From Hexactinellida sp. DTS-2022 (taxonomy: Eukaryota; Porifera; Hexactinellida): a stretch of DNA of 64,000 nt. Location: contig JAPNXP010000013.1 of the NCBI GenBank assembly GCA_028753945.1, positions 1,178,001 through 1,242,000 on the forward strand, in the 5' to 3' direction. This document shows positions 10,759 through 28,084 of the stretch, one piece after another (the first letter of the stretch is position 1; the number at the start of each line of letters is the position of its first letter). The translations under genes and the position numbers were made by a program. A model generated the notes under the pieces. That model saw only the letters and a program-made list of their open reading frames with translations. It was not told the DNA's origin and searched no databases.

Positions 10759-13395
10759 GGGATACAGACTTTTCGTGACAAGACTTTTCGTGACGAGACA
10801 TTTCGTGACGGACTTTTCGTGACACGACTTTTCGTGACAGGGACTTTTAACAGGGGATACAGACTTTTCGTGACAAGACTTTTCGTGACGAGACATTTCG
10901 TGACGGACTTTTCGTGACAGGGACTTTTCGTGACAAGACTTTTCGTGACAGGGACTTTTCGTGACAAGACTTTTCGTGACAGGGACTTTTCGTGACAAGA
11001 CTTTTCGTGACAGGGACTTTTCGTGACAATACTTTTCGTGACAAGATGGGTACTCTTTACACATGGATATCCATGTAATAATTTAATATTCTACATGGCC
11101 GTATCAAGTTCATGAAAACACTTCCGGCCATCATCAGTATAGCTGCCCTTCAACAATATAATTAACATTGTTTAATATATAACTGTTCCGGCAATTTCCG
11201 GACCGCAGATCTCTTGCTACGGCCCTGTTCTATAATTGTTGTGGTTAATGAATCAAGCTTATATAACAAGAGATGTAAGACAAAGTCATGATGATTTTAT
11301 TGTGAACATAAAATATAAGTGATATTATTTGTAAATATTTCTAACCCTTGCTAAAAGAAATATAAATAATTATCCCTACGTAAGGAACTCTTCAATCATG
11401 AAAAGTAAAATGATAGGAAACTCCCCTTAAGAACTCAAACTTTGGCCGCAGTAAATAGCTCTCAACTAAATTTTCTAACGCTTTTTCTCTATCTTCAAAA
11501 TTTCTGCGTTTCGATGGATTGCGCCCACTTATATAAAACGCCTGTTTTACTTCAACCAACCCCTGTTCTCTCTTAAGTATGGTTAGAAAACGCCATACAG
11601 AAGGATGGTGACAAGACATGTGACAAGCAAATGAGCGGTGCCATGCCTCAACTGCATTATTTGTCCTTGGTAACCCATGCTGAACCATGAAGTGGTTGTT
11701 CCACATTTCCATTGGAAATAATGGTGATGACAAAAGGGGGGAATTAGCGATATGTCTACCAATATAAGTCGCTTCAAAGTATAGTGCCAGATCGTAAGCT
11801 TCCACAGGTAGTTGCAAGAAAAGGTTGTTGAAAAGTTCGGGTATGTCAGTAGGAGTTGCAAACGCGAGTGCAGGTAGCATTCGCACTTTTATTGCAAATT
11901 CGACATCTTGCTTGTATCTTGCTGCTAGTCCAAAATGTTGAACTTTACGCCAGACATTTTGGCATAGGTGAAAAAAACAGCCCTGAACCTTTGTAGTTGG
12001 GAAGTATTGTGAAAATGCATTAATCGAGGCAATTTCAAAATCCACAATTAGATGTGTCGGGCAAGCGGTTGGACATAAATCAAGTACTTTATTCCACTTG
12101 TTTGAATATGTTTGCTGGGTCTTGTTCGGTAGCAATATGTATAAACTTGGAAAAATATGACCGGTGAAAATCAAATCAGGACCTCCTTTCAAAGCATGTA
12201 TCACGTAGAGTTGATAAAACAAGCTAGGCACTGTTTTAAAGGTGCCATCAGCTAGCCAAACAGTTGCAGATGAGAGTAACTCCACATTAGCCTGAGTTCC
12301 GAAGATTACAATCCTCTGATTTCCACTTTCCGCACCAGAATCGTAGAGCAAAAATTGTTGGTCCTTTTTTGTTTTAGTATAGCTTTGTGGTATAGAGAGA
12401 TGATGTAGTGATAATGGTTCAGGCGGAACATTCTCGGCTTTTCTTCTGCTTCTCACTATAGTTCTCTTCAGGCTATTGATTTTGGGTAGATGAACAGCAG
12501 ATTGATCATTCAATTCGCTAATAGAAGCTGTCATGATTGAATGCGTTGCTTCCTGACTTTCAGAAGCTTTGCGTTTCATTCCAGCTTTAGCCTGACTGTT
12601 GAAAAATATATGAGGATTACACTCATGAGAATGTATATTCTTTCTGGCTATTACTTCATTTCCCCTTGTGTGCAACCTTGCTTTGCAGTAATCTCTCTGA
12701 ACACACTGCCATTGTGTAACATCTCCGGTAACACGGTGTTTAGAATAAGAAAAATCGCCTTCTAACATCATCAATCCACCCTTAGATGTTTCACAGAACG
12801 CTAGTTCAGTAAGTGTAGGATTACCTATGTAACTATCTAACTCATCGTAATCTTCGTCGTCCACAGATTCGCATGAAAGTGAAACAGTAGGTGTAGAGTG
12901 ATCTGGCGAAAATGGATCCGATAAATTGACGATTTCGTCATCTTCAGGGGAAACTGAAAACACTGACAATGGACCTGGAGGTAAATCATATGTGTCACTA
13001 GAACCATAGTCTGTTAATGTTGAGTGCATTGGATTGTAATGTACAGGGTCGTTCTCTGGCGAATTGTTACCAGTAGGCGGGCATTTAGTATAACTCATAA
13101 CGAATACTCTTACGTTAACGAATAAATAATATATTTAACGATATACACCATAAATATTTGAACTCCCTACTTATAGAAAATTGTAAGCTTGATTCAGTAA
13201 CCCCACGATTATAAAATTATTACATGTATCCATGTGTAAAGAGTACCCATCTTGTCACGAAAAGTCTTGTCACGAAAAGTCCCTGTCACGAAAAGTCTTG
13301 TCACGAAAAGTCCCTGTCACGAAAAGTCGTGTCACGAAAAGTCCGTCACGAAATGTCTCGTCACGAAAAGTCTTGTCACGAAAAGTCTGTATTCC
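10759..13395 (-). mobile_element. Complete FLYWCH-MULE DNA transposon
   Basis: The element starts GGGATACAGACTTTTCGTG and ends with the inverse of GGAATACAGAC. A perfect 9-bp duplication AAGTAACAG flanks it (10750-10758 and 13396-13404), in the 8-10 bp range of Mutator-like elements. The terminal regions are arrays of a 12-15 bp unit (gtcacgaaaagt): about 300 bp on the left and 180 bp on the right. The left array also contains a second copy of the terminus near 10848-10865. One intact transposase gene lies inside. Confidence 0.9.
11392..13098 (-). CDS. MULE transposase with FLYWCH-type zinc finger
   Basis: This intact 568-residue, intronless protein is the transposase that cuts and pastes the surrounding element. 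The first 95 or so residues are acidic and low-complexity. A FLYWCH-type finger follows at about residues 110-180: a GDFSYSKHR core, Cys in QWQCVQRDYC, and paired His in NIHSHEC. The MULE DDE core follows, with D284 in ADGTF, D353 in IVDFEIA, the family's CFFHLCQNVWRKVQ block, and E484 in RTNNAVEAWH. The start is the first ATG after an upstream stop region and lies about 110 bp inside the right array. The gene reads towards the longer left array. With matching terminal arrays and target duplication, it may be recently active. Confidence 0.9.
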   Translation of the reverse strand: MSYTKCPPTGNNSPENDPVHYNPMHSTLTDYGSSDTYDLPPGPLSVFSVSPEDDEIVNLSDPFSPDHSTPTVSLSCESVDDEDYDELDSYIGNPTLTELAFCETSKGGLMMLEGDFSYSKHRVTGDVTQWQCVQRDYCKARLHTRGNEVIARKNIHSHECNPHIFFNSQAKAGMKRKASESQEATHSIMTASISELNDQSAVHLPKINSLKRTIVRSRRKAENVPPEPLSLHHLSIPQSYTKTKKDQQFLLYDSGAESGNQRIVIFGTQANVELLSSATVWLADGTFKTVPSLFYQLYVIHALKGGPDLIFTGHIFPSLYILLPNKTQQTYSNKWNKVLDLCPTACPTHLIVDFEIASINAFSQYFPTTKVQGCFFHLCQNVWRKVQHFGLAARYKQDVEFAIKVRMLPALAFATPTDIPELFNNLFLQLPVEAYDLALYFEATYIGRHIANSPLLSSPLFPMEMWNNHFMVQHGLPRTNNAVEAWHRSFACHMSCHHPSVWRFLTILKREQGLVEVKQAFYISGRNPSKRRNFEDREKALENLVESYLLRPKFEFLRGVSYHFTFHD

Positions 13396-16888: not shown

Positions 16889-18994
16889 ATGGCAAATAAG
16901 GGTGATACATTATTTGAGAGTAAATTATTTTGCGATATGTTAATAAATTCACTGTACAATGAAAAGGATATTCTGAGATCACCACAGCAGGAAGAAGCAA
17001 AATTATCTTTTAACGGACAACCAATTTCTTCCAAGACCTCTTGGAATAGGAAACTTAGTGTTCGACGAAGAAACGCAGTTTCTCTTTATACAAAATATAA
17101 TGAAGTGCCAGTTGGATGTGAGTCAATAGAAATAGATATAAATAACCAAACAAAAGTTAGCGTAATCAGATCGCAATCAAATAAAGAGGTGGAGAATAAA
17201 ATTGGAAATAATGATAAGGGCTCTGAATCATTGCCAAACATAGTAGTGGAAAATGAAGAAATATTAAAAGAATTCCTTAATATTAGTGGGAAAGAAGAGC
17301 CAATTGAATGGCTCGAGGATACAAAGATTGACGTTTCCCATTGGACCGATTGGATATCAGAAGAACAGGTGCAAGCACTGACAAGAAAACAGATACAACT
17401 ACAAGAATCATTATGGGAATTTATCACGAAGGAATCAGACTTTCTATCAAATCTCAAAATAATACTAACCCTCTTCGCAACTAGGCTAGAATCTCTCAAA
17501 CACCTCCACCTGCTAGAAAATATACAGCCAGAGAATATATTTGGAGGAATCAGAGAGATATACCAGTCTCATTTATTTTTCTGGAAGCAATGTCCCAAAA
17601 AGTGCCTGCTTGAAGCACAATCCAACAAACAACTCCTATCTGAGTCCTGTTTGATCAGTAGTTTCCCTGACAAGTTTGAAGAACAGTTCGAGGTTTACTT
17701 CTCACACTGTCTGTTTGCCTCGAAGTACCAAGAAGCCCTATTCAACGCACAGAAAGATGAGTCATTCAAAGACTACTTGAAATGGTGCCAGAAACAGGAA
17801 TGTTCCAATCGGAGGAGTCTAGCAGATTTCCTGATTCAGCCCTTACAGCATATAATGAGGTACACACTATTACTGAAGGCAATAGAGTCGCATACCGGTT
17901 GCAAGGAAAACAAAGTGAAACTCACTCAACTGGTGGAGACCATTGAAACATTCTTAGGCCAAATCAACTTCAAAGTACGCGAGCAAGAAGAGATTGAAAT
18001 TGTACAGCAGATAAATCAAAAGTTGAACTGGTCTACATTTCTAGAGGGCTTTGCTCCCGAAGAGAAGTTTATCGCCAAATATCTCAAACTGGATTTACTG
18101 GCTCCAATGCCTAGTCTACCGTTTAGTATGGCGAGAATACTACTGAAGCATAGCAGGCTTAAGATGCGAGATCTTAGCAGCATTATCTCTCTCGGGTTAA
18201 GAACATCCTTCATCCCTCATCGTCAAGAAACGCACGCTAGGTTCATTTCCGTTAATGTGTACCTCTTTACAGACATTCTGCTGATTGCCAAGCATAAGAA
18301 GACTGATTCGTTTGCACTGTTGAAGCATCCAATTCTTTTGGGAGACATCGTTCTGGAAAAGCATTTACAGGATCAATTCTATCTCATCTCTCAATCAGAG
18401 TTCAACATGCCAAGGGAAATACTTTGCTTCAAAACCTCGAAGCCTGAAGTTACAGACTCGTGGGTTAGAGCAATAAAGAGCGCTTCTGACAAATTTATCC
18501 AAGCGAAGCATCAGTACGTTAACCAGAGGCACTTTATGCAAGAAATAGTGGAAAGCAAAGCAAATTATTTAAATAGTCCGAGTAATATTTCTGCGTCAAG
18601 TTCAATTTCATCTAACATGAGATCAGATTCCAGTTATGAGTTCACAAATGCAAATTCTTCTGAAATTCTTCAGGAACATTCTCGTTTAGAAATACTTCAA
18701 AACAACAGAATATCTGATAAAAGTCTCGAAATTAGCATGAATATATATGGCAACGATTCTACTCATATTCGAATTGAAAAGATGGAAGAAAAGCCCAAAC
18801 AGACAAATATGCTGCAAATATCAAAGAAGGATGCTTTCAAAAAAAGATTTTCGATAAGAAGGAAAAAAGCTGGAGAAAATCCAGAATTAAATGAAGTGGA
18901 ATTTGAAAGAGATAATGCCCGTCTAAAACCACGTGTACATTCTTTCTCTTATTTTCATCGCTTCCTTCGGAGGGACAACTCGTTGAACAGCTAG
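16889..18994 (+). CDS. DH-PH Rho guanine-nucleotide exchange factor, PLEKHG5/6-like (copy A)
   Basis: This 701-residue intronless ORF starts MANKGDTLFE. A diverged N-terminus (to about residue 139, with the SLYNEKDIL and RRRNAV motifs) precedes a core that starts EWLEDTKIDVSHWTDW. The DH (RhoGEF) domain lies at about 160-365, from RKQIQLQESLWEFITKE through LADFLIQPLQHIMRYTLLLKAIE. A PH domain lies at about 430-530, including VNVYLFTDILLIAKHKK and SWVRAIKSASDKF. The C-terminus is Ser-rich, then basic (KKRFSIRRKK). DH-PH proteins load GTP on Rho GTPases at the membrane or cortex. The DH style resembles the PLEKHG5/PLEKHG6 group, though those have multi-exon genes and longer proteins. Residues from about 140 to 565 are identical to copy B on the other strand. 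Confidence 0.85.
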   Translation: MANKGDTLFESKLFCDMLINSLYNEKDILRSPQQEEAKLSFNGQPISSKTSWNRKLSVRRRNAVSLYTKYNEVPVGCESIEIDINNQTKVSVIRSQSNKEVENKIGNNDKGSESLPNIVVENEEILKEFLNISGKEEPIEWLEDTKIDVSHWTDWISEEQVQALTRKQIQLQESLWEFITKESDFLSNLKIILTLFATRLESLKHLHLLENIQPENIFGGIREIYQSHLFFWKQCPKKCLLEAQSNKQLLSESCLISSFPDKFEEQFEVYFSHCLFASKYQEALFNAQKDESFKDYLKWCQKQECSNRRSLADFLIQPLQHIMRYTLLLKAIESHTGCKENKVKLTQLVETIETFLGQINFKVREQEEIEIVQQINQKLNWSTFLEGFAPEEKFIAKYLKLDLLAPMPSLPFSMARILLKHSRLKMRDLSSIISLGLRTSFIPHRQETHARFISVNVYLFTDILLIAKHKKTDSFALLKHPILLGDIVLEKHLQDQFYLISQSEFNMPREILCFKTSKPEVTDSWVRAIKSASDKFIQAKHQYVNQRHFMQEIVESKANYLNSPSNISASSSISSNMRSDSSYEFTNANSSEILQEHSRLEILQNNRISDKSLEISMNIYGNDSTHIRIEKMEEKPKQTNMLQISKKDAFKKRFSIRRKKAGENPELNEVEFERDNARLKPRVHSFSYFHRFLRRDNSLNS
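17305..18584 (+). repeat. 1,280-bp inverted duplicate, arm 1 (gene-conversion tract candidate)
   Basis: The arm runs from TGAATGGCTCGAGG to AATAGTCCGAGTA and matches the reverse complement of 20206..21485. I found no difference wherever I compared, third codon positions included. Just outside, the sequences differ at once. Confidence 0.9.
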
Positions 18995-19858: not shown

Positions 19859-21871
19859 TCATTTTAGACACCAAAAATAGGATAGTAACTGAGAACGTTT
19901 AATTTTGTGATCTTTTTTCACCAGATTGTTTCCATCGGGTACTAATTCCTCAATTGACTTTTTCTTTGTCCTATTCTCATTTCTAAATATCCGCATTATG
20001 GACCATGTAGTCTCAGATTTTTGCACATCCGCTTCCTGTCTATCTCCAAATGGAATGGCTGATGGATCAATCGTTTCAATCTGAATTTCCGTATTTTCAG
20101 ATAATTTTGAGTCATAATTACCTCTAATAACATTGTTTATCATCGGTACTGGAAATGTATATAAGAAAACTGAAGTTTTGCTTGATGAAACTGAAGTAGA
20201 AATAGTACTCGGACTATTTAAATAATTTGCTTTGCTTTCCACTATTTCTTGCATAAAGTGCCTCTGGTTAACGTACTGATGCTTCGCTTGGATAAATTTG
20301 TCAGAAGCGCTCTTTATTGCTCTAACCCACGAGTCTGTAACTTCAGGCTTCGAGGTTTTGAAGCAAAGTATTTCCCTTGGCATGTTGAACTCTGATTGAG
20401 AGATGAGATAGAATTGATCCTGTAAATGCTTTTCCAGAACGATGTCTCCCAAAAGAATTGGATGCTTCAACAGTGCAAACGAATCAGTCTTCTTATGCTT
20501 GGCAATCAGCAGAATGTCTGTAAAGAGGTACACATTAACGGAAATGAACCTAGCGTGCGTTTCTTGACGATGAGGGATGAAGGATGTTCTTAACCCGAGA
20601 GAGATAATGCTGCTAAGATCTCGCATCTTAAGCCTGCTATGCTTCAGTAGTATTCTCGCCATACTAAACGGTAGACTAGGCATTGGAGCCAGTAAATCCA
20701 GTTTGAGATATTTGGCGATAAACTTCTCTTCGGGAGCAAAGCCCTCTAGAAATGTAGACCAGTTCAACTTTTGATTTATCTGCTGTACAATTTCAATCTC
20801 TTCTTGCTCGCGTACTTTGAAGTTGATTTGGCCTAAGAATGTTTCAATGGTCTCCACCAGTTGAGTGAGTTTCACTTTGTTTTCCTTGCAACCGGTATGC
20901 GACTCTATTGCCTTCAGTAATAGTGTGTACCTCATTATATGCTGTAAGGGCTGAATCAGGAAATCTGCTAGACTCCTCCGATTGGAACATTCCTGTTTCT
21001 GGCACCATTTCAAGTAGTCTTTGAATGACTCATCTTTCTGTGCGTTGAATAGGGCTTCTTGGTACTTCGAGGCAAACAGACAGTGTGAGAAGTAAACCTC
21101 GAACTGTTCTTCAAACTTGTCAGGGAAACTACTGATCAAACAGGACTCAGATAGGAGTTGTTTGTTGGATTGTGCTTCAAGCAGGCACTTTTTGGGACAT
21201 TGCTTCCAGAAAAATAAATGAGACTGGTATATCTCTCTGATTCCTCCAAATATATTCTCTGGCTGTATATTTTCTAGCAGGTGGAGGTGTTTGAGAGATT
21301 CTAGCCTAGTTGCGAAGAGGGTTAGTATTATTTTGAGATTTGATAGAAAGTCTGATTCCTTCGTGATAAATTCCCATAATGATTCTTGTAGTTGTATCTG
21401 TTTTCTTGTCAGTGCTTGCACCTGTTCTTCTGATATCCAATCGGTCCAATGGGAAACGTCAATCTTTGTATCCTCGAGCCATTCAGTTGAATATTTCCTA
21501 CTGTAACATGTTTTCCCTGATGGTAATGATGATTCGAGTATTTCCCCGCTAATTATTTCATCTTGCTTTTTAATATTTGTCTCAACGAATGTCAAACATC
21601 TTGGTTTGCGTGTCCCGCCTAGCTGTTTCAATCTTAAATTAGTTGACCATTGAAGATCCACATCCGAAATGCTTGTGACATTTTCAAAAAGAGCATTTCT
21701 GCGTTTTTGATTAGATCTAATTTGCAAAAATCGCTTGGGACAATTTGGCTCTGATAGGTCGATATTAGCCTGCAGTGGTGCATTTAAGATGTCTTTTTCT
21801 TTGTATAATGAGTCTTGCAAAATATTGGAATAACATTCACTACCGGAAATTTTTAAACACATATTTGCCAT
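19859..21871 (-). CDS. DH-PH Rho guanine-nucleotide exchange factor, PLEKHG5/6-like (copy B)
   Basis: This 670-residue intronless ORF starts MANMCLKISG. It lies tail to tail with copy A, about 860 bp away. The N-terminal 129 residues are a diverged homologue of copy A's (shared SLYxEKDIL and RRNA). Residues from about 129 to 555 contain the same DH and PH domains, identical to copy A residue for residue. The C-terminal 115 or so residues differ (IETIDPSAIPFGDRQEAD...). The role should be the same as copy A, with target choice or regulation possibly differing through the termini. Both frames are intact, so neither copy looks like a pseudogene. Confidence 0.85.
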   Translation of the reverse strand: MANMCLKISGSECYSNILQDSLYKEKDILNAPLQANIDLSEPNCPKRFLQIRSNQKRRNALFENVTSISDVDLQWSTNLRLKQLGGTRKPRCLTFVETNIKKQDEIISGEILESSLPSGKTCYSRKYSTEWLEDTKIDVSHWTDWISEEQVQALTRKQIQLQESLWEFITKESDFLSNLKIILTLFATRLESLKHLHLLENIQPENIFGGIREIYQSHLFFWKQCPKKCLLEAQSNKQLLSESCLISSFPDKFEEQFEVYFSHCLFASKYQEALFNAQKDESFKDYLKWCQKQECSNRRSLADFLIQPLQHIMRYTLLLKAIESHTGCKENKVKLTQLVETIETFLGQINFKVREQEEIEIVQQINQKLNWSTFLEGFAPEEKFIAKYLKLDLLAPMPSLPFSMARILLKHSRLKMRDLSSIISLGLRTSFIPHRQETHARFISVNVYLFTDILLIAKHKKTDSFALLKHPILLGDIVLEKHLQDQFYLISQSEFNMPREILCFKTSKPEVTDSWVRAIKSASDKFIQAKHQYVNQRHFMQEIVESKANYLNSPSTISTSVSSSKTSVFLYTFPVPMINNVIRGNYDSKLSENTEIQIETIDPSAIPFGDRQEADVQKSETTWSIMRIFRNENRTKKKSIEELVPDGNNLVKKDHKIKRSQLLSYFWCLK
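20206..21485 (-). repeat. 1,280-bp inverted duplicate, arm 2
   Basis: Partner of 17305..18584, with equal length and matching end points. The spacer between the two arms is about 1.6 kb. Confidence 0.9.
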
Positions 21872-22457: not shown

Positions 22458-22574
22458 TTAACTAATATGTACAAGTCCTCCAAATACTCTGTGCTGTCCA
22501 ATATTTTTCTTCAATTTAGAATATATTAATCCTATTGAAATCAATATATAAGGGATAATAAGCAACAACCACCC

Positions 22575-22862
22575 CACGGGTGTAATTATTGGAAGATAAA
22601 ATGGGAAAAATTCCCAACGTGGATGACCATATATGCTCACTATTTTTGACCATGTGGAATACGAATTTGATGTTCTTCAATCTATGTGACGTCCAAAAAA
22701 ACTTTTATCAACAAAATTAGTCCGCCTGTCCCAAAAAGATTTGCAGAAATATTTTCAAAATAAAAATTTGGTGTTTTTTTTTGATTAGTAAAATTTCAAT
22801 TCACATTTATAGCACACTATTTGGTGCTAATTTTTTCTTCGTTCTTCGTGATATTTTACATG
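22575..22862 (+). repeat. Left terminal inverted repeat of the RAG1-like transposon
   Basis: Runs from CACGGGTGTAATTATTGG to 'gtgatattttacatg'. It pairs with 26798..27086. Differences include G/A near position 51 and homopolymer length changes. Confidence 0.92.
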
Positions 22863-22877
22863 CTTTCTGACTCGAAA

Positions 22878-23444
22878 TACACTAACCGGCCAAAAGTATT
22901 TGAACAGCAATAATTGTATTCAGACATTTCAGTTTATACCAGGATTATAACAATGGTAGATTCTACAAAATGGCTATTTACATGAAACGATATGTAAAGT
23001 ATGTTAAAACAGCAAAATTTCCGAATATACCTTTTTATGGAGGCGTTAAACTCATTAAATATATAATTAGCTCATTAAATAATTAATTTGTGATAATTAA
23101 GATGCAATGTTAATATATTAATTCTGGTAGCAGATTTGAATTCCACATAGTTAAATTACTCTAAGTGCATAATTTCAAATCAATCCGAATATTTTCTACT
23201 GTGATACAGCCACATTTCCATTTGTGCCACTTATGCCACAAGTGGCATGTGGCAGAAACACTTATGCCACTTCGTGAATATTTTCTAAATTTAATTGAAA
23301 TCACAATATTTTCATATCTATATCTATAATAAGTTATTTATAGTCATTTCAGAGTAGTTTAGATAGCCGTTAATAAGATAGCGGATGAATATTGTGTGTG
23401 CATTAAAATCCCTATTGTTCAAATACTTTTGGCTGGTCAGTGTA
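22878..23444. mobile_element. Tc1-like MITE nested in the RAG1-like transposon
   Basis: The ends TACACTAACCGGCCAAAAG and CTTTTGGCTGGTCAGTGTA are inverted and carry TA. The interior shares the 'tgccacaagtggca' motif with the element at 2532..4093. It lies 15 bp inside the left terminal repeat. Confidence 0.8.
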
Positions 23445-24112
23445 CATATTTATTGACTTTTTCCGAATATATCCCTTGTCACTCAGAGAATAATTTTTGT
23501 ATCTATTTATCAATTTATCAGAACTCCAATTTTGTTAGTTAAACTTCCCTCAAGATTATACACTGCTATGGGTGAAATATCGCCATGGCATGTGATGTTT
23601 ATAAAGTTTATCAGATCGTTCAAAATGTACTCATTTTGATAATTCTCGCGTTTTAATATGTGTTCTAAATCTCTTGATTTCTTTGAAATAATGAATTTGA
23701 GCAATTCAACACCTCTAAAGTTGGCCTACACCATACTTGTATAGTGTGAATTACATCTAAAATGCCAAAACCATGAAATTAGATTCTAATAACATAGAAA
23801 TAACAAATATTTCACCTCACATTTAAATGTTAGTGTGAATATAAGACTTCATCATAATACGCTATGTGGTAATCGACGGTGCTTGACGTATAGAATTTAT
23901 GTTGATATATTAATTAATTACCACCATGTAGCTTATGTATGTTTATTTCGTAATTTTTTGGTGGTTAGGGATGAATTTTATGGTGGCGCTAACCATCAAA
24001 CCACCGCATTTGTCGAGCCCTGGTAATCTATTGTTATTATGTGTTAACCATATCCATACTATTTATATAAAAGAGGCACAAAAAGTTAATTCTTCATTCA
24101 GTTTTCAGCTAC

Positions 24113-26392
24113 ATGTCTTGTTCATTAGTAATACCAGATAATGTTTTAAACATTTGGGATGAGTATCACGTAGATTCACTCTACAAAGTATGCCGATTCT
24201 GTTATATGCGGCTATCGCCAAAAGATTTGCCAAAGAAGAATTTGCGACTGACTCCTACTAATCTGGTGATTGACAGAGCTTATAAGTTTTACAACATAGA
24301 TCTTCGCGCGGAAATAGTGGACCTTTATAAGCCAAAGATATTTTGTAGTAGTTGTAGGTCACGGTTATCAGACTTAGAAAGTGGTAAACTTAACAAACAA
24401 AAATGGCATTTTGATAGATCAAATATCGAATCCAACCAAAATGTCGAAATTCCTTATAACGTTACTCGTAAGGCGATTCTCTGTACCCATACAGATCGAT
24501 GTTATATATGCAAAATATACTCGTCCTCCATAAATAATTATCATTCAAAACTCAAGACTCAAGGTCCTAATCCTGGTAGGCCTATAGAACAATCCCCTGT
24601 CAGACTAATGTGCAGCAAGTGTGGAGTGAGTGATGATATTCATGATATCGACTTTTGCAAACGAGTTATGAAACGCCCACAAGTTTCTCAGCAAGCTGGA
24701 AAACTTTTCGCAGAGAGGGTGGAATCTCGTGGATACACTAAATATCTCACTGCTAACTTCCTGGTAAATACCCTCGAAGGTTCAGTTAGTGACAGTAGCC
24801 TTATTACTCCATTAAATACTCTATCATTACATCATCCTTTCGATTCGAATAATCAATTAGCTGTAACTACAGTTCCGTATAAGAGTGCAAAATACAACAA
24901 CAATAGTAAACATGTTTTGAGCAGAGAGGCAGTTCGAGATATGCAGAGGTTAGGACATCTTGGCTTGGGTAAAAAGTCTTATTTTGAACTTGGAAGAATT
25001 CTTCGCAAAGAAGGGATTTGTTTTCCTATGGGGGGAATAAAAGGAACATGGGACGAAAAATGGTCTATATTTGGAGATATATTCACTTCAGTATCCATCA
25101 AGATCAAGCGTTCAGCAACAGAAAACTTTGAACTAATTCCAATTGGAATTTGTACTGATGTTGAAAGATTATTGAATATTATCACGCATGAACAGTCAAA
25201 TAGAATCTCCAGACTTAAAGTACAGCTTGATGGCGGCAAACAATTCCTCAAACTGTCTGTCAATATCGTTTCAATGCTTCCGAATAGTCTGTATCTACCA
25301 AGTCCTAATAGCGTTCTTTCAAATTTTATAATTGCGATGGGTCACGCGTCTGAAAATTCAGAAAATCTGCGTTCAATGCTAAATTTCACATCAATTCGAA
25401 ACATCTTTAACTTAGGTATCCCTATCCAAATTGCTTGTGATTTTAAAGTGGCTGCAATGCTCGTTGGAATTCAGCAGGCATCCAGCAAGTACCCCTGCCC
25501 ATTCTGTACATGGCGGAAGAACACAAAATGTACTGGAACACCTTCTCGTGCAAGAATATATAAGGAATTAATTAAAGACCTTCATTCAAAAAACTATAGC
25601 GTTTCCCATGAACCAATTATCCGGTGGTCAGATTCACCTATGGAAATACTTGCTCTTGCTCCTCTCCATATACTTCTAGGTCTCGTAAATCGGTTGTATG
25701 GTGTGGCTAGGCCATCCCAAAATGCGACTAACCGATATGACCGTTTACTATATAAACAACACTGTCAAGCTTTACAAAGATGCAAAGTATATCGATCTGA
25801 GTACTGGGATGGCGCTTTAGAAGGAAATTCTTGTTCTCGACTTTTGGATAATTTAGATATTATACCATTCCCTAGCCATCATACCTCCCTGATAAATGCA
25901 TTGAAATCGTTAAAGATGGTAAAAGACAGGTGTATGGGTCTTTTTAGAATGCCTGGTTGGGAAGAGAGTATTTGTCTATTCAGGGAGTCATGGAATGCAA
26001 CCGGCTTACCTTGGTCATTGAAGTCACACATACTTTGCGACCATTATACGGATTACTTCCTCCTTTACGAACCTCAATCAACAGCAGGGGCAGCAATAAG
26101 TTCAGAGCAGAGCGGAGAGATGTTGCATTCCAGAATGCAAACTCTTTGGGAACTTAGATTTAAGACTAATGTAGAGCACGAGTTATACCCACAGCGATTG
26201 GTTGATTGTATGGTGACGTATAATTATAATTTACGGTGGGATGATGCAGAAAGGCTAGTATCTAAAGAACAGGGGAATATATTTTCTGATGAATGTAGAG
26301 ACTGTCATGATGAGGAGAGTTATGACAATATTGAAAGGGTAGAGCTCCATAATTGGGACACAGATGAAGAATCTTGTGATATTGATTACTAA
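24113..26392 (+). CDS. RAG1-like transposase: N-RAG zinc region plus DDE core
   Basis: This 759-residue intronless protein shows a Cys/His order in its first 135 residues that matches the RAG1 N-terminal region. C27xxC30 is followed by FYNIDLRAEIVDLYKPKIFC with C78xxC81, then H126TDRC130YIC133. RAG1 has the same order ending HTxxCxxC. In the core, D373 (QLDGGKQ) and D443 (ACDFK) are candidate acidic residues. C462xxC465 follows D443 by 19 residues, the spacing between D708 and C727 in human RAG1. H639 and H644 are five apart, like RAG1 H937/H942. E665 or E669 (SSEQSGE) could complete the triad. The tail is acidic. The probable role is transposition of the surrounding element. Family knowledge: N-RAG-TP elements of molluscs combine an N-RAG region with a transposase. 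Whether this core is RAG/Transib or Chapaev-like is open. Confidence 0.82.
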   Translation: MSCSLVIPDNVLNIWDEYHVDSLYKVCRFCYMRLSPKDLPKKNLRLTPTNLVIDRAYKFYNIDLRAEIVDLYKPKIFCSSCRSRLSDLESGKLNKQKWHFDRSNIESNQNVEIPYNVTRKAILCTHTDRCYICKIYSSSINNYHSKLKTQGPNPGRPIEQSPVRLMCSKCGVSDDIHDIDFCKRVMKRPQVSQQAGKLFAERVESRGYTKYLTANFLVNTLEGSVSDSSLITPLNTLSLHHPFDSNNQLAVTTVPYKSAKYNNNSKHVLSREAVRDMQRLGHLGLGKKSYFELGRILRKEGICFPMGGIKGTWDEKWSIFGDIFTSVSIKIKRSATENFELIPIGICTDVERLLNIITHEQSNRISRLKVQLDGGKQFLKLSVNIVSMLPNSLYLPSPNSVLSNFIIAMGHASENSENLRSMLNFTSIRNIFNLGIPIQIACDFKVAAMLVGIQQASSKYPCPFCTWRKNTKCTGTPSRARIYKELIKDLHSKNYSVSHEPIIRWSDSPMEILALAPLHILLGLVNRLYGVARPSQNATNRYDRLLYKQHCQALQRCKVYRSEYWDGALEGNSCSRLLDNLDIIPFPSHHTSLINALKSLKMVKDRCMGLFRMPGWEESICLFRESWNATGLPWSLKSHILCDHYTDYFLLYEPQSTAGAAISSEQSGEMLHSRMQTLWELRFKTNVEHELYPQRLVDCMVTYNYNLRWDDAERLVSKEQGNIFSDECRDCHDEESYDNIERVELHNWDTDEESCDIDY

Positions 26393-26797
26393 TCTTGTTA
26401 ATTATAATATAATAGATAGTATACTTAATCAAATGGCTTGGAAAATAACTCAAATAAGGAAATTCTAGGTTAGGGTATATCTATATCAATAATTTATTGC
26501 TATCAGTCTGTTTGTCTGTATTTTTGTCCGAGTTTGAAAATTAATTATGGTTGCATTTACTACCAATATACGTAGATAATCAATAAAACTTTATTGCAAT
26601 TAATTTTTCGCTAGAATGAGCATAGTAAATATTTCCTACGTGTAACATTATATTTTTTAGTGAATTCGAAGGCCGCGCCTTATTATGAAGTATACTATTG
26701 AGTAAAGTATAATTAAATCTTAGACCAAAATGTTGATATATCATATGTAAACATTATGATCAATAAATTCGTCAAAATGCCAACAAATATGTGAATT
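26393..26797. other. 3' flank of the transposase inside the element
   Basis: Non-coding AT-rich DNA. It includes a candidate polyadenylation signal AATAAA at 26582..26587, about 190 nt after the stop. Confidence 0.4.
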
Positions 26798-27086
26798 CAT
26801 GTAAAATATCACGAAGAACGAAGAAAAAATTAGCACCAAAATAGTGTGCTATAAATGTGAATTGAAATTTTTACTAATCCAAAAAAAACCAAATTTTTAT
26901 TTTGAAAAATATTTCTGTAAATTTTTTTGGGACAGGCGGACTTATTTTGTTGATAAAAGTTTTTTTGGACGTCACATAGATTGAAGAACATCAAATTCGT
27001 ATTCCACATGGTCAAAAATAGTGAGCATATATGGTCATTCACGTTGGGAATTTTTCCCGATTTATCTTCCAATAATTACACCCGTG
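26798..27086 (-). repeat. Right terminal inverted repeat of the RAG1-like transposon
   Basis: Reverse complement of 22575..22862 with about 95% identity by eye. It is followed at once by ACCC and then the host exon. Confidence 0.92.
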
Positions 27087-28084
27087 ACCCTAGGGCCATA
27101 AATGCTGGTTCAATCGAGCTCACGAATAAGTCATAGTCTGCAATAATTTCTTTATAAGTCAATGGTAGTATATCATTACCTCCATGTCTACCTCCAGACA
27201 TAATTATTGTAATGAAAGAGTATGGGTTGGTAAGAACTAACATGATCAGGGAGTGAAATATTAAAATTGAGTAAGACAACAAATGGAAGAAAAACGAGGC
27301 ACCGAGCAAAATAGAACCAATTTTGAAGTGTTGATAAGCTCTCTTGTAATATAGGATAACTGATTTGCTTTGATTTTCAAAGAAGTAAGCATCGAAGTAA
27401 CGTGTGTAAATATTTCTACGCAGCTGTTTGCTTGCGATTGAAAACTTCATGAATTCAGTGGTCATTACTACTATGAAACCGATGAAAAAAGGAAATGTGA
27501 ATATAGGAACTAAACCAAGTATGTATAATATTGATAAAACGAAGCTCGATTTAATGATCTCTCTCTTAATATTATTTTGAATTGGATAATGACTGTAACA
27601 GTTCGAAATATATTCAGTTAAGATTCGAGAGGGCAATACACTGCGAGAAATAAGATCAAGAAGAGACTCGCAAGTCAAATGATGCATATCCTTGGAACAC
27701 ACCATAAAAATGAACTTCTGGTAGCCATCCTCCGAAATAAAATGATTTATTGGAATGTTTAGAATAGAATAAGATAGTAACCAATGCTAGGTAAATTGAA
27801 ATAATAAATCCACATTCTGAAACACAAATAACTAGTAGAAACTTATTCCTCACAATCTGTAATCGACAATTCTTGACTTGAACTGACCACTTAAAGAAAG
27901 GTAATTGACCTTTTAAGCTAACATAATAACTTAGTGTCTTATTTATGTTTATTAATGACAAGATTAAGTAAAAAGACCAAAAGAAAGAAAGAACAAACAA
28001 TAGGGTCAACTCAATCAATATTGTGAGAATATAACCTTTGACAAAAGAATGGTAAATTTTCCAAATAATTTGATTCATTTTCAA

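Follow-up and report, generated by a model that had tools for sequence, protein, structure and literature searches.

A probable Chapaev transposon in a glass sponge genome, with an N-terminal zinc region of RAG1 type and a core distantly related to Transib

Introduction

A protein whose cysteines and histidines recall both the N-terminal region and the catalytic core of RAG1 is encoded in a 64,000-nucleotide stretch of the genome of Hexactinellida sp. DTS-2022 (hereafter the window), and the locus raises the question of what kind of element this is and whether its likeness to RAG1 bears on how RAG1 was put together. An earlier note, made from the letters alone, had read the protein as a transposase uniting both halves of the RAG1 plan. 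Our analysis points to an autonomous Chapaev DNA transposon, a reading to which we give a probability of roughly 0.93.

Chapaev DNA transposons were reportedly treated by Kapitonov and Jurka in 2007. They are described in passages of PMC4411706 and PMC4079192, the latter listing as hallmarks CAC/GTG ends, 3- to 4-bp target duplications, a DDE triad, and the motifs C(2)C, LH, and H(4)H. We placed the element by such hallmarks, that is, against published descriptions of Chapaev and not reference sequences.

Results

The open reading frame lies inside a complete element, bounded by inverted repeats and by a duplicated target site, with the following parts:

22571..22574, no strand: left target site duplication, ACCC; the same four bases occur again at 27087-27090
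22575..27086, forward strand: whole transposon, 4,512 bp with a nested MITE included; inverted repeats, ends CACGGGTGTAAT...ATTACACCCGTG, ACCC on both flanks
22575..22862, forward strand: left terminal inverted repeat, 288 bp; 95.9% identity in a gapped alignment with the reverse complement of 26798-27086
22880..23442, no strand: nested MITE with 29-bp inverted ends; TA at 22878-22879 and 23443-23444
26798..27086, reverse strand: right terminal inverted repeat, from the gapped alignment with the left repeat
27087..27090, no strand: right target site duplication, ACCC, matching the left

The termini of the window copy are CAC...GTG. Just inward of the left repeat sits the nested MITE, 563 bp long with TA on each side; at least 39 further near-full-length copies of it were listed, at 93-97% identity, and it is missing from both copies of the transposon that show the two sides of the site, L010 and L005. 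By eye, the MITE looks Tc1-like.

Matches to the transposase amount to at least 66 pieces, several to a copy, across the 112-Mb, 18-contig genome. The closest copy among six loci compared at the DNA level is L010 (one and the same copy as L002), with 99.4% identity over 3,634 aligned bases. Target sites were scored at 20 loci, namely L009 to L024 (16 loci) and the copies on C16, C10, C11, and C3, and nine of these were two-ended: L016 was left out for a mutated last base and L018 for one extra base ahead of CAC, while one or both ends of the other nine loci were missing under the patterns used. An exact 4-bp duplication flanks eight of the nine (ACCC, TCGG, ATGT, CTAC, CCTG, ATGT, AACT, and TTAT); the exception is L013, and the C3 copy, with the duplication CCTG, starts with CAT in place of CAC. 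The transposon of the window has been recently mobile and has spread recently.

An intact frame whose key residues are constrained among relatives would also suit a RAG1-like host gene, domesticated and no longer mobile. The window copy itself, however, is bounded by complete inverted repeats and a target duplication, and close copies lie elsewhere in the genome, several with stops and, in the two-ended set, nearly all with duplications of their own; a host gene is scarcely credible here.

Two observations concern other copies. In L016 and L017, the frame is broken at a nearly identical place, at about transposase residue 455, shortly past D443; either a frameshift passed on by descent or a small intron could account for this. 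A remoter Chapaev relative, L061 (G000:C1:3242300-3245300), has a 709-aa open reading frame, inverted repeats (99.7% identical) that extend for 319 bp or more and run into the end of the locus, and an N-terminus that looks especially RAG1-like by eye. Outside this genome, searches for relatives gave 44 pattern matches in viral contigs and 91 in genome contigs, none of which was confirmed, and found none in phages.

The transposase and the two regions that recall RAG1 are as follows:

24113..26392, forward strand: transposase open reading frame, 759 aa, ATG to TAA, with no internal stop
24167..24661, forward strand: N-terminal zinc region ("Chapa" or N-RAG type), residues 19-183; H19, C27, C30, C78, C81, C130, C133, C167, C170, and C182 invariant in six of six proteins; best PDB match 21wb; aligned to RAG1 by hhalign
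25229..26119, forward strand: catalytic core, D373 to E669, with D443, C462/C465, H519, and H639/H644; assigned by hhalign to the Transib alignment A2, shuffle controls, and residue mapping to RAG1

The motifs that the earlier note had named are all at the residues it gave: C27xxC30, C78xxC81, H126TDRCYIC133, D373, D443, C462PFC465, H639ILCDH644, and SSEQSGE, the last with E665 and E669. FYNIDLRAEI stands ahead of the second cysteine pair in the translation, and in the window protein D443 precedes C462PFC465 by 19 residues. In an alignment of six proteins (A5), consisting of the window protein and five relatives that are 57, 56, 24, 22, and 21% identical to it, the invariant residues are H19, C27, R28, C30, P74, C78, C81, C130, C133, C167, C170, and C182 on the N-terminal side and D349, D373, D443, C462, C465, H639, H644, E665, and E669 on the core side; C167, C170, and C182 form an extra CxxC...C cluster present in all six. 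H519 of the LH motif is found in five proteins, the sixth (L062) being deleted in that part. Given this invariance across six aligned proteins, the motif pattern can be taken to exceed chance.

The same alignment removes two details from the RAG1 comparison. H126, put forward as part of a shared HTxxCxxC, is S, V, G, D, or P in the other five proteins, so this histidine is peculiar to the window copy; and the 19-residue D-to-C spacing, put forward as a RAG1 mark, shortens to 17 in two of the aligned six and to 15 throughout the 14 Transib proteins and is therefore not diagnostic. The N-terminal signature that is shared reads H-x7-C-R-x-C ... P-x3-C-x2-C ... C-x2-C. A PGRP motif stands directly past the zinc pairs (window residues 152-162) in five of the six aligned Chapaev proteins, and the GRP within it is reminiscent of the one that a passage of PMC9435367 mentions for the nonamer-binding domain of RAG1.

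Taken by itself, the window protein had no family match in Pfam, DUF1280 (Chapaev) and RAG1 included, and no match in PDB; its single-sequence AlphaFold2 model had a mean pLDDT of 31.8 and was unusable for judging whether D373, D443, and E669 meet in an RNase-H fold. Profiles were more informative for the N-terminus. A profile of six Chapaev N-termini (A4) had its best PDB match in 21wb, the N-terminal domain of RAG1 (sequence E 0.0061, best-domain E 0.033), and this match spans the first two cysteine pairs only; second was an unrelated viral glycoprotein (E 0.098), and third was 7pok (E 0.43), an insect zinc protein that we take to be of ZAD type. Aligned by hhalign with human and mouse RAG1 (residues ~101-247; the letters of the human sequence are provisional), the N-terminus scored 31.8 (E 1.8e-4, probability 48%). 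The top score among 200 shuffles was 22.2, and among 200 shuffles with C and H fixed it was 26.5, the latter leaving no wide margin. By eye, that alignment retains in RAG1 all nine invariant positions of the first 140 residues (H19, C27, R28, C30, P74, C78, C81, C130, and C133). The 21wb match and the hhalign result bear out the proposal of a RAG1-type zinc region, and the case that this part of the transposase is related to the corresponding part of RAG1 seems to us good but not overwhelming. The Pfam model of the RAG1 N-terminus, PF12560, gave nothing above cut-off over the genome, its one sub-threshold match (E 0.74) lying away from the window locus.

A ZAD kinship of the N-terminus was also considered and dropped: the zf-AD model had one weak genome match, at none of the listed Chapaev matches, and the literature listings contained nothing about such a kinship.

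For the core, the comparison that carried weight was with Transib. The Chapaev profile aligned over 445 columns with A2, a set of 14 Transib proteins from this genome, at an hhalign E of 1.9e-9 (probability 96%), and a smaller Chapaev set gave E 1e-7; the core alone scored 81.4, where no column shuffle out of 100 exceeded 27.6 and the reversed alignment scored 22.4, and the N-terminus alone gave no alignment with A2. By its PDB matches (HzTransib, E 9.9e-55; lancelet RAG1L, 1.9e-27; RAG1, best 1.1e-19), A2 is a genuine Transib set. Chained through A2, D373, D443, and E669 map to D603, D711, and E965 of RAG1, and C462, C465, H519, H639, and H644 map to C730, C733, H798, H940, and H945. These positions (D603, D711, C730, H940/H945, and E965) are in the numbering of a provisional human sequence, for which only non-identical chains, of 1040 residues, were found. 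The mapping makes E669, and not E665, the counterpart of the last RAG1 glutamate, and the RAG1 numbers labeled human in the earlier note look like mouse numbering.

Compared directly with the RAG1 core, the core gave an hhalign E of 0.54, which is not significant, so the RAG1 connection passes via Transib only. A five-sequence profile (A3) run against PDB returned no RAG1, only ribosomal-protein noise, and the Pfam model of the RAG1 core, PF12940, did not match the window protein, whose locus is absent among the 68 genome matches listed. The core is thus a distant Transib relative, RAG1-like only at one remove. The RAG1-like catalytic layout that had been proposed holds insofar as the residues are in register via Transib, and it fails as a direct match to the RAG1 core; a core that matched Chapaev/CACTA alone and lacked any significant RAG1 or Transib match had been named in advance as grounds for rejection, and what we found lies halfway, with Transib significant and RAG1, compared directly, not. 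In the same manner, the idea that one protein unites both RAG1 halves survives for the N-terminal zinc region and for the Transib relationship of the core, but not for a direct relationship of the core to RAG1.

The PF12940 search listed 68 genome matches up to E 1, and 15 of these exceeded the curated cut-off. From these we fetched 18 Transib loci (L032 to L049), 14 of which were aligned as A2 (L036, L038, L046, and L048 were left out); the frames of L035, L037, L047, and L049 are almost or entirely without an N-terminal part. Of the 10 aligned proteins that do include one, none showed the Chapa profile there, and the top Transib score with that profile, 6.9 bits for L039, came from the fourth Chapa cysteine cluster set against the C-terminal zinc tail. 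CACAGTG ends, which we take to be the RSS heptamer, were found with an exact 5-bp duplication in 3 of the 18 loci. A tail of the form C-x2-C-x3-G-H-x(3-6)-C is present in nine of the 18. The stretch ahead of the final C is five residues long in seven of these, three long in L041, and six long in L049, and in none is it exactly four; the RAG1L tail is given in a passage of PMC7204232 as C-x2-C-x3-G-H-x4-C. The Transib tails resemble it and might alternatively be a plain zinc knuckle (zf-CCHC_6 scored E 0.17 on L039), and a passage of PMC9435367 already describes a RAG1L-type tail in Transibs of subgroup I. Several open frames of ~700 aa were seen in the Transib set, for example, at G000:C2:2732500-2737500.

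These data bear on whether the window element could be a strict member of the RAG1-like/Transib family, a RAGL or ProtoRAG relative minus RAG2 that owes its RAG1 likeness to close descent. Both the N-terminal zinc region and the core are related to RAG1, and the element ends start with CAC, as such descent would have it. Transib and RAG-like elements make 5-bp duplications, however, and those found here are of 4 bp; the window protein has no PF12940 match in a genome where that model finds many; the RAG1 core is not directly similar; and the genome's own Transibs stand apart as a set, three of its 18 loci showing CACAGTG ends and 5-bp duplications. As for a RAG2-like partner, only one open reading frame of at least 100 aa lies between the repeats in an unspliced reading, and a PF03089 search of the genome, run without a positive control, gave no match. 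The 4-bp duplication and the separate Transib set largely refute such close descent, which we consider quite improbable.

The assignment to Chapaev draws on the CAC...GTG ends of the window copy, on the 4-bp duplication, within the published range of 3 to 4 bp and exact in eight of nine two-ended copies, on a DDE triad with C(2)C, LH, and H(4)H (D373, D443, C462/C465, H519, H639/H644, and E669), and on a Chapa zinc domain recognized from the pattern invariant in six of six proteins and from the alignment to the RAG1 N-terminus. DUF1280 (PF06918) is the Pfam family assigned to Chapaev in a passage of PMC3985635. It scored over cut-off at two loci tied to the window family through L018, only with neighboring pieces added, and below cut-off at L061 and, with 19.9-21.5 bits, at the Transib locus L032; since it also scores on a Transib locus, it does not separate Chapaev from Transib here.

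According to parts of PMC4411706 and PMC4079192, respectively, the Chapa domain is also present in Chapaev3 (Merrow, Garfield, and Conan), and Chapaev3 makes 3-bp TWA duplications. The window element is like Chapaev3 in its Chapa domain and core motifs; Chapaev3 was excluded by the 4-bp duplications, which are without a TWA pattern (ACCC and others).

A third reading would make this a CACTA/EnSpm or Mirage element that is zinc rich at its N-terminus by chance. CACTA/EnSpm elements have CACTA ends and 2- to 3-bp duplications; here, the termini are CACGGGTG (CACGG) and the duplications are of 4 bp. CAC ends would fit, as would the core motifs, which an excerpt of PMC12730594 describes as common to the whole CACTA-Mirage-Chapaev-Transib group. 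Against chance in the N-terminus stands its alignment to RAG1, at 31.8 versus 26.5 in the shuffles that preserve C and H, if by no wide margin, and relatives reached via L018 attain the DUF1280 cut-off, though that model touches a Transib locus too. We hold a CACTA or Mirage identity to be most improbable and keep to Chapaev.

Discussion

The window element shares with Chapaev its CAC/GTG ends, its 4-bp duplication, a DDE core with C(2)C, LH, and H(4)H, and a Chapa domain corresponding to the N-terminal part of RAG1, and it differs in having long inverted repeats (288 bp in the window copy and 785 bp in L018) and in the lack of any Pfam match, RING included, for the window copy. With Transib it has in common CAC ends and a homologous core in which the catalytic and zinc-type residues are in register, whereas the Transibs of this genome have 5-bp duplications and CACAGTG ends at the three of 18 loci where these were found. 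Its likeness to vertebrate RAG1 consists of the N-terminal H-x7-CRxC ... P-x3-CxxC ... CxxC signature and of core residues matched via Transib; unlike RAG1 and the RAG1L of ProtoRAG, it has no RING match, no second open reading frame for a RAG2 partner, a 4-bp duplication, and a core without direct profile similarity. N-RAG-TP of Aplysia (Panchin and Moroz 2008), as told in a passage of PMC8355894, consists entirely of N-terminal-like sequence. By that description, it likewise carries a RAG1 N-terminal-like region on a transposon, but the N-terminal-like part stands alone there, whereas the window protein has it joined to a complete DDE core.

The earlier note saw in this union a bearing on whether RAG1 was assembled from two transposons or received its N-terminus together with its core. 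Both the union and the inference had been published: in PMC4411706, Kapitonov and Koonin (2015) report a RAG1-type N-terminus (the Chapa domain) fused to a Transib-related core in Chapaev, and they also draw the conclusion on the ancestry of RAG1. The element is therefore a good fresh example and no new kind. Our analysis contributes a group of Chapaev elements whose N-termini are of RAG1 type, including an intact and recently mobile one, alongside RAG1-related Transibs in a single genome; a sharper N-terminal signature, usable for finding more relatives; and the finding that neither the HTxxCxxC histidine nor the 19-residue spacing is diagnostic. A literature search on Chapaev with Amphimedon listed a single paper, a review, which is weak evidence about sponges.

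It is conceivable, though we think it unlikely, that the zinc N-terminus and the DDE core of RAG1 were inherited as one unit from a Chapaev/Transib ancestor, RAG1 having kept both and most Transibs having lost the N-terminus. If so, a fusion of two transposons would be unnecessary. The Transib findings from this genome are compatible both with such inheritance and with RAG1 having acquired its N-terminus from a Chapaev. A genome that holds both Chapaevs with Chapa domains and Transibs, some of the latter with RSS-heptamer ends or a RAG1L-like zinc tail, offers a good test ground for such joint inheritance.

As to mechanism, we propose cut-and-paste transposition by the encoded protein. Its dimerization and its binding of the long inverted repeats may be aided by the N-terminal zinc region together with the invariant cysteines that follow, an RNase-H-type center of D373, D443, and E669 would make the cuts at CAC/GTG, and the CxxC ... 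HxxxxH ligands may hold a zinc-stabilized insertion, as in RAG1 and Transib. The freed ends would then be joined to target strands 4 bp apart, which would account for the 4-bp duplication.

Other features of the window lie upstream of the transposon. Two genes, at 16889-18994 (forward strand) and 19859-21871 (reverse strand), stand in inverted orientation, the second matching RhoGEF in Pfam; they have 1,302 bp in common (17301-18602 versus 20189-21489; 99.6% identity), with differing gene ends, which suggests a recent duplication or gene conversion. At 11392-13098 on the reverse strand, a 568-aa open reading frame has, by eye, the look of a FLYWCH/MULE-type transposase.
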